A stretch of 26,763 nucleotides of DNA from a virus. Positions 2,500 to 25,360 of the stretch are shown piece by piece (positions within the stretch are counted from its first letter, which is position 1; every line of letters begins with the position of its first letter). The position numbers were made by a program, and so were the translations under genes. The notes beneath the pieces are model-generated. The model saw only the letters and a program-made list of their open reading frames with translations, did no database searches and was not told the DNA's origin. The DNA lies in the IMG/VR virus record IMGVR_UViG_3300037296_000293, positions 1-26,763 of that record; one strand, 5' to 3'.

Positions 2500-3017
2500 T
2501 TTATAAATTTTATGATCGTGATTATTACTATCAAGGCTAATGCAAAACCGCCAATCCAAGCCAATGCTTGTTTCCACGGTGGAGTATATTCTTGTAGCTT
2601 TATTTGGGTCTTCTCAAGAGTTTCTATTCTTGATTTAAGTTTCGATATTAGAGTAACAGATAGTTGTAAATCTTTACTAATGGAGTCGCATTCCGCTATT
2701 CCTTTTAGATAGCCATTGGCTAGATCTATACTGATAGATGCATTCCGTTTGCCGGTGCTATTTACAGATGTAACCCGTTTTCCGTTTTGTTCCAGGTAGG
2801 GCACTAAATTGCTATCACAAATAACCTTTACCACAGTAATGGCAGTATCAGCAGCAATGTAAATGGTCGTATCCTTCCATTTAGTTTCAATAGTTACCTC
2901 AGTGCTATCTTGGATAGTTCGAGTATTCGTTTCCGTAATCACTCGATTACAAGAAGTCAAAGCAGCGATCACCAAAACGGCTAAAACAACGGCTATATAT
3001 TTTGTAGTTAGTTCCAT
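2496..3017 (-). CDS. Probable unimolecular spanin (u-spanin)
   Basis: This 173-residue protein has a lipoprotein signal (hydrophobic stretch at residues 8-20 ending LTSC, with C23 the likely lipidated residue). It has a middle of predicted beta and helical segments (residues 24-145) and one C-terminal membrane segment (about 152-170, ALALIVIITII) ending in basic residues. An outer-membrane lipid anchor plus a C-terminal inner-membrane segment in one chain is the layout of u-spanins such as T1 gp11, which fuse inner and outer membranes in the last lysis step. It overlaps the end of the endolysin gene by 10 bp and the next start by 4 bp, so it belongs to the lysis cassette. The topology is clear; the function is inferred from family and position. 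Confidence 0.72.
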   Translation of the reverse strand: MELTTKYIAVVLAVLVIAALTSCNRVITETNTRTIQDSTEVTIETKWKDTTIYIAADTAITVVKVICDSNLVPYLEQNGKRVTSVNSTGKRNASISIDLANGYLKGIAECDSISKDLQLSVTLISKLKSRIETLEKTQIKLQEYTPPWKQALAWIGGFALALIVIITIIKFIK

Positions 3018-3562
3018 CTGCTTGTTTGATAAATCTGCTTTGATAACCTTCTTTTTCTATAAACACCATCACCTTCACGGCTTCCGGCTTCGTTTGTATT
3101 TCCTTCTATGGTAATTGTAGTTGCACCTGGCACTTCAATTATTCCTACGTGAGCAATGCGGTTTTTACTTCTAAAGTAAATCCCAAATACATCACCTGGC
3201 TTTGCATTCTTGACCAACCGATCTCTGGGCAACCAACTAGGACTCCATGCCGATTTAGCACCGGTAACTCCAGCCTGATCATGCACCCATGATACAAATG
3301 CAGCACACCATGCATATCCTTTGTCTAGTCCTACAGAATTGAGGTATTTCGTTACTTCAACACCGTCATTCTTTCCAGTCAATTCTCTAACTCCGATCTG
3401 CGAAGCTGCAATAGTGATTATTGCATCAGCATGCTCTAAGTTTGAATGACTATCAGTAGTCTCAATTACATTACAACCGCTATCTATATCGATAGTAAAG
3501 CCACTAGATACGCTGCTACAAAAAAGCAGTATAAGCATAGCGACAATCGTATTTTTTGCCAT
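3008..3562 (-). CDS. Secreted endolysin, CHAP/NlpC-P60-type cysteine peptidase or amidase
   Basis: The 184-residue protein carries an N-terminal signal (residues 1-21, a hydrophobic run after MAKN). The peptidoglycan hydrolase domain starts near residue 45. Key features are the AWCAAFVSW motif with nucleophile C86, RIAHVGIIE with H138, and a polar IEGNTN segment at 152-157 that would complete the active site, the pattern of CHAP domains of the TIGR02594 type. It lies after the holin gene and before the likely u-spanin gene. Its first 79 bp overlap the end of the holin gene in another frame, so its export signal is encoded inside the holin gene. Export by Sec would make lysis timing depend on release or activation, as with signal-arrest endolysins. 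Confidence 0.85.
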   Translation of the reverse strand: MAKNTIVAMLILLFCSSVSSGFTIDIDSGCNVIETTDSHSNLEHADAIITIAASQIGVRELTGKNDGVEVTKYLNSVGLDKGYAWCAAFVSWVHDQAGVTGAKSAWSPSWLPRDRLVKNAKPGDVFGIYFRSKNRIAHVGIIEVPGATTITIEGNTNEAGSREGDGVYRKRRLSKQIYQTSRWN

Positions 3563-3822
3563 TCGTCCAAAGCTTTGTAGTCGAGATTAAATCCCAACGG
3601 GTTATTAAAATAGTTGAATACAAAAGGGAATACTACTCGAACTCCCAACCATGCAGCCGTATTGATGCACAATACATAAATAGCAGCCACACTCAACGAT
3701 TGAAGTACACCGGCATCATAAATACCGGCTGTTGGATCCAACCATCTTAATGCAACCGGTGAGAACCAGAAGATCAAGATTGCCAAAGGAATTCCAATTA
3801 TTTCGTTGATGTACTTTTTCAT
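3484..3822 (-). CDS. Holin-like membrane protein
   Basis: The 112-residue protein has three hydrophobic segments (about residues 8-25, 42-70 and 92-111) with a short charged loop KALDEWQKIR before the last one. Small size, multiple membrane spans and position immediately before the endolysin gene support a holin that permeabilises the inner membrane. The start overlaps the preceding stop as ATGA, which suggests translational coupling. The last 79 bp also encode the signal peptide of the endolysin. No specific holin family is recognised. Confidence 0.68.
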   Translation of the reverse strand: MKKYINEIIGIPLAILIFWFSPVALRWLDPTAGIYDAGVLQSLSVAAIYVLCINTAAWLGVRVVFPFVFNYFNNPLGFNLDYKALDEWQKIRLSLCLYCFFVAAYLVALLSI

Positions 3823-4127
3823 TTCTCTTTTAGTTTTGAAGCGTTTTCCTTCCAGAAATCACCAATCTTTTTTTCACGGTCTAACTGACCATCCTGAAGA
3901 ACTTTAATAGCCTTGGTATTGCTATCCACATCTCCTCTTAAGTTTTCAAACTCAGTACGAGTTCGAACATCCATCACCTTTACATCCGTTCTAATGTCTT
4001 GAATCACATCAAGAGCCTCGTTAAACTTGGTATTGATCTGAATCAAAAAGAAGCTTACTATGGTTAGTAGAATGGTTATAAACGAACCAATCACACCTCT
4101 AATCGTATCATTCATTTGAAAACTCAT
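3819..4127 (-). CDS. Small membrane protein with coiled coil, haemolysin XhlA/holin-accessory type
   Basis: I choose the ATG at 4125-4127 (protein begins MSFQMNDTIRGV); the longer GTG-initiated frame would start inside a REP-like palindrome. The 102-residue product has one N-terminal membrane segment (about residues 12-32) and then a heptad-rich coiled coil with DVIQDIRTDVKVMDVRTRTE and NTKAIKVLQD, ending in lysines. This layout is that of XhlA-type lysis accessory proteins encoded beside holins. It is the first gene of the lysis cassette and follows a tRNA and a REP-like palindrome. It could instead be an antiholin or a small structural protein. Confidence 0.65.
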   Translation of the reverse strand: MSFQMNDTIRGVIGSFITILLTIVSFFLIQINTKFNEALDVIQDIRTDVKVMDVRTRTEFENLRGDVDSNTKAIKVLQDGQLDREKKIGDFWKENASKLKEK

Positions 4128-4145
4128 TGTTATATTAATTTTCTC

Positions 4146-4175
4146 GTTTGTCACATTGAGCGACAGCCGAAATGT
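4146..4175 (-). repeat. REP-like palindrome, copy 1
   Basis: The element has arms ACATT (4153-4157) and AATGT (4171-4175) around the conserved-looking core GAGCGACAGCCGA. It is closely related to the element at 23413-23441 and resembles the GTCACA-TGAGCG-CCGAA-TGT palindromes scattered through Bacteroidetes chromosomes. It lies between the tRNA and the lysis genes, 2 bases past the tRNA 3' end. Confidence 0.72.
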
Positions 4176-4177
4176 AG

Positions 4178-4250
4178 TAGCGAGAGGGGGACTCGAACCC
4201 CCGACCTCTAGGGTATGAACCTAGCGAGCTACCAACTGCTCTACCTCGCA
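4178..4250 (-). tRNA. tRNA with CAU anticodon, initiator (fMet)-like
   Basis: The 73 bases fold as a canonical cloverleaf on the minus strand. D-stem is GAGC/GCTC, anticodon stem CTAGG/CCTAG with loop TTCATAC (anticodon CAT), variable loop AGGTC, and T-arm GGGGG-TTCGAGT-CCCCC. CCA is not encoded. Initiator-type features are the unpaired T1-T72 end, purine-pyrimidine A11-T24 in the D-stem (elongators normally have pyrimidine-purine) and a D-arm and variable loop like those of bacterial tRNA-fMet. It departs from classical initiators in the anticodon stem, where positions 29-31/39-41 are AGG/CCT instead of GGG/CCC. It lies between coat and lysis genes and would be cut from the late mRNA. Confidence 0.93.
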
Positions 4251-4259
4251 AGACCTTTA

Positions 4260-5300
4260 TTAAGAGTTTAGCTTATTTAAGATTGCACCAATTCCTGCTT
4301 GCTTCACAGGAAGAACTACATTCCATAATCTAGCGCCAAACAATGATTGTCTGTTTTGTGGATCCGCTTTCGCTTCCGCTAAGAAAGCTTCGATATCTCC
4401 ATTGGCTCTAACCGTTCTTGGAGCGTAGTAAAATACCGATGCATTAACATCTGTAGTTAAAGCTGTAGCTCCAAAAGCTTTCTTGGTTTTTGCAACTGCA
4501 TAAGTTACATTATAGACATCTTCGTAAATCTTGAAACCTGCATATTTCTCTACAATAGCACCTTCTTTGTGATTATTGTAACGATCCATCAACGAACCAT
4601 CATTGATCAACAAGTCTCCGATGTGATCTCCACATAACACAAGAACTCTACCTTCCAAAGGATAACCTGCATTGGTTAATCGAGTCTTAGCCTTAACCAA
4701 GTCATCATAACACAATGTAAATCTTCCATCTCTAGCAGTTCCTGAACATTCAATTACTGGAGTAGCTGATGTATCAGATGCTGGTGCCAAAGAGTGAAGT
4801 CCTAAGATTGCAGCCTTTTCTTCAAGCGCCATTCTGTGCTTATCTCTATAGATAGATACTTTATCGTAAGACAATGCATACAACTCATCACGAGTAACCT
4901 TGGTATTGACTGTATCGAATTTCTTTAAACTGATCGGTAAATTATCATCCGATCCGGCAACTACACTAATCGGATAAGAAGTGTTATTTACCAACACATC
5001 AGGATCAACACCTATTTCTGTCAGGTTGATAATATTGTTATTCACATAGTCATTCTTGCTAGGTATAGTTTCCAAGAACTTATGCTCAAACCTGAGTTCT
5101 CGAACTAACTCCGTTTCAATCATAGACTGAAGAACTACTGCTGAAGCCACTGATACTTGAGGCACAAAACTCAAAGCGTACGATACGCCAATACATGCTC
5201 CTACGGTTGCTACAGGATCAGTTCCCATACCTTGAGCTACTGCCGTTCCGAATATTACGCTTAACAATAAGCTAAAAATGATTTTGATTGCTATTTTCAC
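4260..5300 (-). CDS. Major capsid (coat) protein, Mu gpT-like role
   Basis: The 346-residue protein lies after the protease/scaffold gene. Its C-terminal half resembles HK97-fold coat proteins of Mu-like phages: a GRVLVLCGDHIGDLL segment near residue 220, a KYAGFKIYEDVY segment near 255, and a closing FYYAPRTVRANGDIEAFLAEA...SLFGARLWNVVLPVKQAGIGAI region that looks like the A-domain end. The frame starts with GTG at 5298-5300. The first 24 residues (MKIAIKIIFSLLLSVIFGTA then VAQG) look exactly like a Sec signal peptide, which is odd for a cytoplasmic coat protein. A start at M25 (MGTDPVATVG) or removal of the leader by the phage protease are alternatives. A perfect hairpin lies upstream and a tRNA 10 bp downstream. 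Confidence 0.8.
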   Translation of the reverse strand: MKIAIKIIFSLLLSVIFGTAVAQGMGTDPVATVGACIGVSYALSFVPQVSVASAVVLQSMIETELVRELRFEHKFLETIPSKNDYVNNNIINLTEIGVDPDVLVNNTSYPISVVAGSDDNLPISLKKFDTVNTKVTRDELYALSYDKVSIYRDKHRMALEEKAAILGLHSLAPASDTSATPVIECSGTARDGRFTLCYDDLVKAKTRLTNAGYPLEGRVLVLCGDHIGDLLINDGSLMDRYNNHKEGAIVEKYAGFKIYEDVYNVTYAVAKTKKAFGATALTTDVNASVFYYAPRTVRANGDIEAFLAEAKADPQNRQSLFGARLWNVVLPVKQAGIGAILNKLNS

Positions 5301-9364: not shown

Positions 9365-10606
9365 ATGAAAAAAGGTAACATTATACAAAAAGTACTTTCT
9401 TACGTCCCTGACCAATTTATTAGAATAGAAGCATTCAATAGGAATAAAAAGGGAAATAGAGCCACTACAGGGATAATTCCGGAAGCCAATAAAATCCGTG
9501 ACATTGAATTGGAACAATGGAAGAGAGCCATTACAGCTGCTACCAATCCAGAGAATCCAAACAGAGCGCCTTACTATGATGTTTGTGATAAAATCAAGAT
9601 TGATTCACACTTGAATTCTATTTGTGAAACTAGAATACAAAGAGGAGTTAGATCTAAGTTTAGAGTGGTGGACGAAAAAGGCGATACCAATGAGGAGTTG
9701 ACTGCATTATTAACACGGGTTTGGTTTGAAGACTGGATCAAGTACTGCATTCAATCTGTTTTTGATGGCGATACCTTAATCGAATTGTGGGACTTGGAAG
9801 AAGACACAGGTGAATTGGAACGCATTCACAAAGTGCCAGAGCGTCATGTGCTCTGGCACAAACAGCAAATTGCCAAAAAGGTGGGCGATGAAAAAGGCGA
9901 GTCTTATGTGGAGAATGGAATGGATACCTATTACATTCAGATCGGTAACGGAAGGGATTTAGGATTAAACAAAATCCTTGCTCCTCCAGCTATTGAAGTG
10001 CTGTTTATCAAAGGCGCTGCTATGCTCTTTATTGATAAATACGGAGTGCCTTATCGATGGGCAAAAACCGACTCTACAGACGAGGAAAGAATCTCAGAAC
10101 TAGGAGAAGCCCTTCAATTAATGGGACCAGCAGGATGGGCGATTCTCCGTGATGATGAAACGATTGAACACTTAGAAATAGAATCAGGATCCTACGAGGT
10201 TTTTGAATTAGCCATCAAACGTAAGTACTCAGACATGAGTAAGGTAGTACTTGGTCAAGACTCTACTTCATCTTCATCTGATTCACAAGGCAATTATGGA
10301 TCATTGAAAGTGTTGCAGGAAATTGCTGAAGACAGGCATCTTTCTGACAAAGCTCGAGTACTGCATTTAACGAATAAGCAATTGTTGCCAAGATTGGTAT
10401 TGTTAAGTCCGGTGTACGCTCAATTTGCCAACCACAAAGTGGAATGGGATGAAACGGAGGAGCTCAGCATCATGCAATACATTGAAGCAGCATCTAAATT
10501 AGGAGTAGATTGGGAATTAGATCCGGTTGAGATTACACAAAAAACTGGATTTACAATTCTAGGCCGTAGACAATCATCTAATGAAGATGAATATCTGGGA
10601 AAGTAA
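9365..10606 (+). CDS. Portal protein, DUF935 (Mu gp29-like)
   Basis: The 413-residue protein matches the Mu-type portal family in order and length. It has an N-terminal clip and wing region, YYDVCDKIKIDSHLNSICETRIQRGVRSK-like helix at about 75-105, the FDGDTLIELWDL segment near 140 and the LFIKGAAMLFIDKYGVPYRWAK region near 220, a family hallmark. A C-terminal helical part includes AEDRHLSDKARVLHLTNKQLLPRL. It would form the dodecameric DNA gate of the prohead. It follows the gp36-like gene after a 71-bp leader with phased repeats, and precedes the F-like gene. Confidence 0.92.
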   Translation: MKKGNIIQKVLSYVPDQFIRIEAFNRNKKGNRATTGIIPEANKIRDIELEQWKRAITAATNPENPNRAPYYDVCDKIKIDSHLNSICETRIQRGVRSKFRVVDEKGDTNEELTALLTRVWFEDWIKYCIQSVFDGDTLIELWDLEEDTGELERIHKVPERHVLWHKQQIAKKVGDEKGESYVENGMDTYYIQIGNGRDLGLNKILAPPAIEVLFIKGAAMLFIDKYGVPYRWAKTDSTDEERISELGEALQLMGPAGWAILRDDETIEHLEIESGSYEVFELAIKRKYSDMSKVVLGQDSTSSSSDSQGNYGSLKVLQEIAEDRHLSDKARVLHLTNKQLLPRLVLLSPVYAQFANHKVEWDETEELSIMQYIEAASKLGVDWELDPVEITQKTGFTILGRRQSSNEDEYLGK

Positions 10607-23412: not shown

Positions 23413-23441
23413 GTTTGTCACACTGAGCGAAGCCGAAGTGT
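23413..23441 (-). repeat. REP-like palindrome, copy 2, overlapping the transposase stop
   Basis: Arms ACACT (23420-23424) and AGTGT (23437-23441) enclose GAGCGAAGCCGA. Relative to the copy at 4146-4175, one arm changes T to C and the other A to G, so pairing is kept. It overlaps the last base of the transposase stop codon (TGA at 23443-23441). Confidence 0.75.
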
Positions 23442-25360
23442 CACATTCTATCAGTTATATCAGCATCTTCAGGCACTGCCTTTGTTATTCTATTTCTCCA
23501 GTTATTCCACTTCTCATCCTCATCATATCCTACTGAAGCAGCCTTTTCTTTTAATTTCTCAATCAATTCATCCTCACCAGCCATTTGTCCGTTAATCCAT
23601 TGCTTTTCGCCTTCCTTCAACCATCTCGCTGATCGGTTTACTTTGCGTTTTGGTTCAGCTGTAGCTACTAATCGCATATCGCCATCTGGTAGCGGCTCGT
23701 ATAGCTCCACATCAGGATACTCTCTATCCGGATCATACTTCACATAGAATTTTTTCTTCAGGTTTTTCATTCTAAAATCGTAGTCCACATCACCTTCAGG
23801 TGTGTACACTTCAAACCACTGATCATGGCCGTTGAATGTCATTTCAATACCTTCTTTTTGGTATTTTTTCGGACCAGCTATATCCCAGAATAACTCGGAG
23901 TATTCTTCAAGTCCTAATGATGAGGCTTCAGGATCTTTACACTCGTTATAAACCGATGCATGAGATTTTCCTTTATATTCAGGATGATTCATGTTGTTCC
24001 ATTCATTGATTAATACCTCAATCAATTGGATCAATTCATCATAAGTTGGCAATTCTTCAAAATGTCTATCTACTTCATCCTTATTAGGTGCATTTTGCTC
24101 ATTGCTGTGAGTATGCCTTCCGAATCCAGTCCAAAAAGGTAGATCAGCTAATACCATCCGTTGAAACCTTCCAAATGCAGATTCAATTGGCTTCGAAGCC
24201 GATCTATAAGCACGAGTAGGAAAGTGAACATGAGTTAGTTTCTCGTAAAAATTCTTTGATTCTGTCTTTTTGTGACCACCTTGATTATCATATAAAGATT
24301 GGTAAGGGGCAAACCATCCATTTTCTCTTAAAGCCATTCTATTGGCCTCTAGTTGCATTTCGTAGTTCTCTTTGTTGAGACCGTTTTTCATTGAGTAGCC
24401 AATCATTTTGTAACTCAATGCATCCATCACTACATATACAGTAGCAATACCTTTTTTACTCGCTAGTTTCTTGCCTTTAGCATCCACTCGGTTGTAATCT
24501 TGAAAGTATAAGTCAACCTTGGTACCATCACCAACCCAAAGATCATCAGCGTAAATGGCTCTCGTAATATTGAACTGCTGTCCGTATCGATTCAGGTAAG
24601 CTTTCTTACCTAATCTAGCAAAGTCAATTGTTTGCTTCACTTCGGGCTTTGTCATTCTATGAATGAAGGCTTCAGCTGTTATGTCAGTCGGCCATCCCAT
24701 CTTTTCAGCATAACTCAAGTATTTGCGTTCAAATACCTGATCCGCACTTATACGAGTACTGCACATTTCTTTGATAAACCAGTTCTCCACTTCCGGAGCA
24801 ATCTTCTCACTATTATTATTGTTGTAACGGCCTAATGGAATCACAGCCTTAAAGCCTTCCTTCTTAAATTCCTTCTCCTTTGCCTTCAATTTCGCATAGG
24901 TGCCAGGAAGGGCTATATTTTTATTCTTTATATGATCAATGATGACATCATAAAAGTCTGCTGTAGTTGCAAAGCCTAGATCCTTAATTTTTCGAGGTGA
25001 TTGATCAGTTAGAAATCGAAGTACATTACAAGCTTTACTATATCTCGTTTTTTGAGCATTATCAAGCCCTTTTCCGTTCGGAGTTTTAAAGATGATCAGC
25101 TGAGCAAATGATCCGGTATCCGTACTAATCAAGCTCGTAATCCGTGAGCTCCAGTAATACTTATACACATCACCAAATCGCTCAATTATCTGCTCTTTGT
25201 ATTTCTCCTGTAGTAATTCGAAGTTGAAAAGCTTAATTCTCCTATCCAATGGATCAGATACCTTTATTGGATCATTCCAACTAAGTATAGTTCTCCTAGA
25301 AAGATTCGAATCCAAGCAATCTTGAAATTCCATATACAATATGTTTTCAAGTAACTTCAT
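23441..25360 (-). CDS. MuA-type DDE transposase
   Basis: The 639-residue protein has an integrase-core catalytic domain with D278 in WVGDGTK, D358 in LYDNQGG and E393 in ASKPIESAFGRF, the last two separated by 34 residues. The flanking NKENYEMQLEANRMALRENG and HFPTRAYRSASKPIES stretches are typical of MuA-like transposases. The N-terminal 250 residues should hold end- and enhancer-binding helices; the C-terminal part (from about 560) is highly charged and probably contacts the MuB-like ATPase. It directs integration and replicative transposition. It starts one base inside the stop of the Ner-like gene. Its stop codon overlaps a REP-like palindrome. Confidence 0.96.
   Translation of the reverse strand: MKLLENILYMEFQDCLDSNLSRRTILSWNDPIKVSDPLDRRIKLFNFELLQEKYKEQIIERFGDVYKYYWSSRITSLISTDTGSFAQLIIFKTPNGKGLDNAQKTRYSKACNVLRFLTDQSPRKIKDLGFATTADFYDVIIDHIKNKNIALPGTYAKLKAKEKEFKKEGFKAVIPLGRYNNNNSEKIAPEVENWFIKEMCSTRISADQVFERKYLSYAEKMGWPTDITAEAFIHRMTKPEVKQTIDFARLGKKAYLNRYGQQFNITRAIYADDLWVGDGTKVDLYFQDYNRVDAKGKKLASKKGIATVYVVMDALSYKMIGYSMKNGLNKENYEMQLEANRMALRENGWFAPYQSLYDNQGGHKKTESKNFYEKLTHVHFPTRAYRSASKPIESAFGRFQRMVLADLPFWTGFGRHTHSNEQNAPNKDEVDRHFEELPTYDELIQLIEVLINEWNNMNHPEYKGKSHASVYNECKDPEASSLGLEEYSELFWDIAGPKKYQKEGIEMTFNGHDQWFEVYTPEGDVDYDFRMKNLKKKFYVKYDPDREYPDVELYEPLPDGDMRLVATAEPKRKVNRSARWLKEGEKQWINGQMAGEDELIEKLKEKAASVGYDEDEKWNNWRNRITKAVPEDADITDRM

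Follow-up and report, generated by a model that had tools for sequence, protein, structure and literature searches.

The window analysed here is the whole 26,763-nt stretch of the virus record IMGVR_UViG_3300037296_000293. Its minus strand encodes, between the genes for the major capsid protein and those for lysis, a tRNA with a CAU anticodon and the body of an initiator tRNA. The initial annotation of this gene left the strand unstated and did not mention that the anticodon loop carries U32 in place of C32 and C38 in place of A38, as compared with cellular initiators. On comparison with other tRNAs, loop positions 32 and 38 turn out to be the key feature of the gene. We lean slightly towards the view that it encodes a late-expressed, functional replacement initiator tRNA that resists anticodon-loop nucleases and would thereby keep phage protein synthesis going. 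Transposable phages of Bacteroidota carry such an initiator-type tRNA repeatedly, as their only tRNA, in the late operon and with an altered loop. The parts of the gene are as follows.

4178..4250, minus: initiator-type tRNA (CAU) gene, 73 nt, without encoded CCA (ARAGORN, Rfam RF00005, identity to host fMet versus elongators)
4208..4224, minus: anticodon arm CTAGG/CCTAG; pair 29-41 is A-U here and G-C in Bacteroidota hosts (sequence; positions 29 and 41 altered in 10 of 11 phage rows)
4213..4219, minus: anticodon loop TTCATAC (positions 32–38); CTCATAA in cellular initiators (sequence, cellular and phage counts)
4215..4217, minus: anticodon CAU (positions 34–36) (ARAGORN, sequence)
4212..4213, minus: positions 38–39, C-C here where hosts have A-C; enteric VapC cleaves tRNA-fMet at this bond (sequence; PMC4105405)

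ARAGORN called a single tRNA across the window, a tRNA-Met (cat) at complement 4177–4250, and Rfam RF00005 matched at 4250–4178 with E 1.3e-11 and 62.8 bits, against a gathering score of 29. The sequence reads TGCGAGG TA GAGC AGTTGGTA GCTC G CTAGG TTCATAC CCTAG AGGTC GGGGG TTCGAGT CCCCC TCTCGCT A. The 73-base cloverleaf is intact, and every structural detail given in the initial annotation is present: U1 and U72 are unpaired, A11 pairs with U24, the D-arm is GAGC/GCTC, the variable loop is AGGTC, and the anticodon-stem pairs are AGG/CCT and not GGG/CCC. The discriminator is followed by CTA instead of CCA, which is also the case in the Bacteroidota host fMet genes that were inspected.

The tRNA exhibits 74–78% identity with chromosomal tRNA-fMet of Bacteroidota versus 57–63% with elongator CAU tRNAs of the same phylum, the elongator set having been obtained with a BLAST query; a strict elongator pattern run on Bacteroidota gave no match. 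These identities, together with A11-U24 and the unpaired 1-72, rule out an elongator tRNA-Met or tRNA-Ile2. The assignment to the initiator class made earlier is thus upheld, and alignment to Bacteroidota tRNAs did not show elongator Met or Ile2 to fit better, a result that would have spoken against it. The nearest match in the Bacteroidota comparison is a tRNA of a Bacteroidales prophage, with 86.5% identity. The CAU anticodon and A73, both features read by methionyl-tRNA synthetase, are found in the window tRNA and are invariant across 18 phage rows. The window tRNA lacks a Watson-Crick 1-72 pair and has G2-C71 and C3-G70, which are kept in 18/18 and 17/18 of the phage rows, respectively. 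Related phages also retain the missing 1-72 pair. The pair A11-U24 occurs in 18/18 rows, and host elongators (L374, L375) have C11-G24. Two customary initiator traits are missing. The three G-C pairs 29-41, 30-40 and 31-39 are replaced by AGG/CCU, which also occurs in cellular initiators, so that the trait is not strictly defining; the typical loop C32...A37 A38, not known to be required, is here U32, A37 and C38. By these characters the window gene is an initiator-type tRNA, short of a proven tRNA-fMet.

Searches with the capsid protein gave few relatives, and alignment of the terminase (TerL) served instead. Among 546 terminase relatives overall, 80 related loci were picked by this alignment, blind to tRNA content. 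A tRNA-Met is present in 10 of the 80, in each case as a lone tRNA of the initiator type; the only other tRNA call was one tRNA-Tyr. The earlier statement that tRNAs are unusual in Mu-like phages is thus not simply so. The loops of the ten are TTCATAC (2), TTCATTC (5), TTCATGA, CTCATTA and CTCATAT, and none is CTCATAA. Neither the window tRNA nor any of the ten relatives still has the dinucleotide A38-C39; the two relatives that retain A38 have U39 in place of C39. In the 11 rows formed by the window and the ten relatives, which are kin and do not count as ten separate events, the base differs from that of Bacteroidota hosts at position 32 in nine, at 37 in seven and at 38 in nine, and pair 29-41 differs in ten. 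No row differs at U8, A14, G15, G26, U33, the anticodon, A44-G46, U54, C56, A58 or A73. Columns 1, 9 and 59 and those of the D-loop are changed as well; they do not belong to the anticodon arm and are also variable in ordinary tRNAs. As far as the alignment tells, the change is targeted to the loop positions while the other functional positions stay.

The presence of the tRNA on the terminase tree is patchy, requiring 9 changes, at least 7 of which are forced by supported branches. The cloverleaf is kept nonetheless: across 18 phage tRNAs 99.2% of stem cells are paired, versus about half in slid controls, and double-sided stem changes number 61 versus a shuffled mean of 15.6. The check for conservation and decay proposed with the initial annotation is thereby answered in favour of the gene, the relatives showing a tRNA under structural constraint with covarying stems.

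To see how the loop is distributed in cells, genomes of three phyla were surveyed, 296 from Bacteroidota, 100 from the phylum of G017 and 101 from that of G012. The pattern used left positions 37–38 free and allowed C or U at 32, and the rows were counted by hand. CTCATAA was found in 350 of 353 rows of cellular initiators; the other three are TTCATAC phage-type copies in seed genomes, and among non-seed matches CTCATAA accounts for 350/350. The joint pattern of TTCATAC with the initiator D-arm was found in 67 viral contigs versus just 17 of 84,980 genomes. An ordinary CTCATAA copy visible to the pattern is also present in 12 of those 17 genomes. Among the genes around their TTCATAC copies are those for terminase, portal, minor capsid protein, integrase, repressor and endolysin, a phage context that holds for the loci with informative neighbours. 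Of the recognisable genes beside the viral copies, those for terminase and portal are the most frequent, and 58 of 84 parsed TTCATAC copies are the sole tRNA of the stretch covered. The loop change is thus phage-specific in these searches, which found no cellular initiator donor with such a loop. To judge from the contigs, TTCATAC is a loop that recurs in phages of several other groups besides the transposable Bacteroidota phages. The exact anticodon-arm sequence of the window tRNA had no match in the viral contigs.

A Clostridiales elongator-type tRNA-Met (L216:1571-1645) also has a TTCATAC loop, so the loop is compatible with a cellular CAU tRNA. Permuted tmRNA-like genes were called by ARAGORN near an initiator-type tRNA in a Stenotrophomonas phage (L006:3920-4337) and a Comamonas (pro)phage (L214:1438-1888). 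In several viral contigs (L036, L051, L076 and L133) a tRNA-fMet of the ordinary host type lies no more than about 100 bases from where the covered stretch stops, suggesting that they are prophages integrating at tRNA-fMet.

The initial annotation had pointed to AGG/CCT in place of GGG/CCC. The replacement is present, and it is unremarkable alone, as the chromosomal initiators of many genomes in the phylum of G017 read TCAGG/CCTGA. Since such stems are normal elsewhere among cellular initiators, it was dropped as the key oddity.

The genes of the window that bear on the setting of the tRNA are the following.

4260..5300, minus: major capsid protein, directly upstream of the tRNA in the same operon, with a 9-nt gap (phrog_267 major head protein, E 3e-12)
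3819..4154, minus: small membrane-protein-like open reading frame (ORF), directly downstream, with a 23-nt gap to the mechanical ORF start (ORF list)
3008..3562, minus: CHAP endolysin, same operon (Pfam PF05257, E 3.6e-8; phrog_9589 endolysin)
9365..10606, plus: Mu-type portal protein (Pfam PF06074 Portal_Mu, E 2.9e-47)
23441..25360, minus: transposase of a Mu-like phage (phrog_310 transposase, E 1.2e-45)

A DUF2586 sheath is also encoded in the window. With a transposase, a Mu-type portal and a head and tail gene order like that of the Winoviridae, the phage is evidently a transposable (Mu-like) phage of Bacteroidota. Downstream of the small ORF come the lysis genes, with overlaps; the small ORF itself had no match in family searches of Pfam and PHROG. 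The position of the tRNA inside a capsid and lysis operon, as first described, is confirmed by the gaps of 9 and 23 nt. The tRNA is probably transcribed with the late operon, because this spacing leaves no room for a promoter of its own. A remnant of an attachment (att) site was rejected, because the phage is transposable and the gene stands inside its late operon.

The arrangement recurs in the related loci. In a Bacteroidales prophage (L388, which includes L208) the protease and capsid genes are followed by one small ORF, the tRNA, a further small ORF, the endolysin and the sheath, an order matching that of the window despite capsid proteins that are only 39% identical. The tRNA follows the capsid gene in L255 and L298 as well; it stands at the head of the same operon in L299, L300, L311, L313 and L318, and elsewhere in L309. 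In Bacteroides stercorirosoris (L204:4875-7081) and B. oleiciplenus (L212:560-2764), Mu-like transposase A/B genes occur with a variant initiator tRNA, which lies near a repressor gene and away from the capsid gene. The N-terminus of the window capsid protein (4260–5300, minus), MKIAIKIIFSLLLSVIFGTAVAQG, is hydrophobic and resembles a signal peptide. Capsid proteins with likely cleaved signal peptides were described for another Bacteroidota phage family in a Porphyromonas phage paper (PMC10367356).

The proposed mechanism starts from these observations. The tRNA would be co-transcribed with the late capsid and lysis genes and released from the message by host tRNA-processing enzymes. The retained features would allow charging by the host methionyl-tRNA synthetase, formylation by the formyltransferase and use in starting at the ribosome. 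The altered positions, 29-41, 32, 37, 38 and sometimes 39, vary little or not at all among the initiators of Bacteroidota hosts, and host anticodon-loop nucleases, such as PIN toxins of the VapC type, may fail to recognise the phage copy, so that late proteins could still be started. Expression, charging and nuclease resistance of the phage tRNA are what we infer here. According to PMC4105405, enteric VapC-type PIN toxins cleave tRNA-fMet between A38 and C39, the dinucleotide lost in the window and all ten relatives; the loop is thus unlike that of the host at nuclease-relevant positions. It was also reported that a mycobacterial VapC protects against a phage (PMC13273310).

PIN-domain genes were found in 46 of 61 Bacteroidota genomes, and suitable nucleases in this phylum are plausible on that basis. 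In a Ruminococcus flavefaciens metagenome-assembled genome (L198:530-3119; L389) a TTCATAC initiator-type tRNA has a PIN gene on either side, at distances of about 0.5 and 1 kb, and a small ORF directly precedes each of these genes in the manner of vapBC; the two PIN proteins had no match among PDB sequences. This tRNA could be an immunity element if the toxins cut tRNA-fMet, which for a single locus is only suggestive.

Several points weigh against nuclease evasion. The presence of PIN genes is uninformative because they are so common. We know of no nuclease cutting tRNA-fMet from Bacteroidota or from the actual host of the phage. A tRNA expressed late would be of use only against a nuclease whose action precedes or coincides with the late phase of infection. 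The loop change is not universal among phages: initiator-like tRNAs in phages of other groups keep CTCATAA in 87 of 95 cases, in a sample that was confined by its pattern to tRNAs with A37 and G31 and that included host att fragments. The broad viral sample was drawn with a pattern requiring A37 and is therefore unusable for position 37.

The tRNA might instead be an extra initiator for a limited pool during the capsid burst, with loop differences that are incidental or come from an unusual donor. Initiator supply limits starts in principle, and the location in the late capsid operon and the ordinary loop kept by many phages both agree with this. We nevertheless regard it as unlikely, as it leaves unexplained why 32, 37 or 38 is changed in all ten related copies while other functional positions are constant, and the searched genomes offered no donor. 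Position 37 and the GC pairs of the anticodon stem matter for initiator selection, and the loop (37, 38) and the weakened three-GC stem (29-41) could relax the selection of start codon or ribosome in favour of weak starts such as GTG. The adjacent capsid frame does start with GTG, from which the initial annotation suggested that the tRNA favours phage starts of this type. This suggestion found no support: nothing links the two, no statistical start-codon comparison having been made. Most ORFs of the window start with ATG, AGG/CCT is the usual stem of cellular initiators in many genomes from another phylum, and the diverse replacements at 37/38 (AC, TC, GA, TA, AT) resemble escape from a motif and not convergence on a new property. 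Altered initiation is thus quite improbable, and the distinctive change at 32, 37 and 38 points to nuclease evasion rather than to a start-codon preference.

Two further explanations concern the gene as a landmark or a relic. The tRNA could serve mainly as a processing site separating the capsid mRNA from the lysis mRNA, and it lies exactly between these genes in the window and also 3′ of the capsid gene in the three loci named above. The operon-head slot in five loci and the different site in another argue against it; besides, any tRNA would do for this purpose, yet the tRNA-Mets are all of the initiator type, with one other tRNA in 80 loci. We consider punctuation of this sort very doubtful. 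That the gene is a recently captured, decaying passenger without function is hardly credible. Its patchy presence on the terminase tree would fit, yet the intact cloverleaf, the strong covariation across the 18 phage tRNAs and the invariant determinants disfavour decay, as does its retention after the capsid gene in the prophage with the distant capsid protein. Since the determinants are kept and the part read by nucleases is rewritten in several ways, escape from nucleases fits better than supply, start-codon tuning or punctuation.

The carriage of tRNAs by phages is a long-standing question, and ordinary codon compensation cannot explain a lone initiator tRNA. The present case isolates the nuclease-evasion idea cleanly, as it involves a single tRNA and a single known site of toxin cleavage, which relatives have lost in parallel. 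If the idea is true, toxins that cut tRNA-fMet are predicted to act against phages, and an initiator D-arm with a loop other than CTCATAA provides a signature for finding such phages. It is conceivable, and we propose it tentatively as falling somewhat short of probable, that 'immune' initiator tRNAs without the A38-C39 site have arisen time and again in phages of several bacterial phyla, as a distinct class of counter-defence. This would imply that destruction of tRNA-fMet is a widespread anti-phage response, Bacteroidota included.

The nearest named relative by capsid protein is the Winogradskyella phage Peternella_1 (Winoviridae), with 34% identity and a similar head and tail gene order. 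No tRNA was found in Peternella_1; in the gap after its capsid gene, where the window has the tRNA, there is a hairpin that by eye resembles a terminator. Cellular tRNA-fMet of Bacteroidota shares the determinants and, in the genes inspected, the CTA after the discriminator, and differs in having CTCATAA and GGG/CCC where the window has TTCATAC and AGG/CCT. Initiator-like tRNA-Met genes are annotated in Cellulophaga phage phi4:1 and Stenotrophomonas phage QDWS359 and are present, unannotated, in PaMx74 and Streptococcus Javan59. All four have the D-arm and initiator body of the window tRNA, with 85–88% identity. PaMx74 also has the TTCATAC loop. Unlike the window tRNA, those of QDWS359 and Javan59 have TTCATAA, and that of phi4:1 keeps the host loop CTCATAA in a cluster of about 23 tRNAs.

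Rescue by a phage tRNA has been proven experimentally for the T5 tRNA-Lys variant against PARIS and for tRNA-Tyr against retron-Eco7, the latter thought to act through abundance (PMC11555353). As proposed here, the phage tRNA would likewise restore a tRNA destroyed by a defence nuclease; the tRNA and the nuclease are different. Van den Berg et al. 2023 (eLife, PMC10264068) described tRNAs with loop mutations in mycobacteriophages of cluster C1 and proposed them as replacements for cut host tRNAs. It was also reported there that phages generally avoid encoding tRNA-fMet, the target of VapC-LT2, in Shigella. The window tRNA resembles the mycobacteriophage tRNAs in having a loop unlike that of the host at positions that matter to VapC and to further nucleases of the anticodon. 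Their main set comes from tRNA-rich phages with 33 tRNAs per phage, whereas here a lone initiator tRNA is carried by small transposable phages. The reading favoured here extends their proposal to the initiator tRNA.
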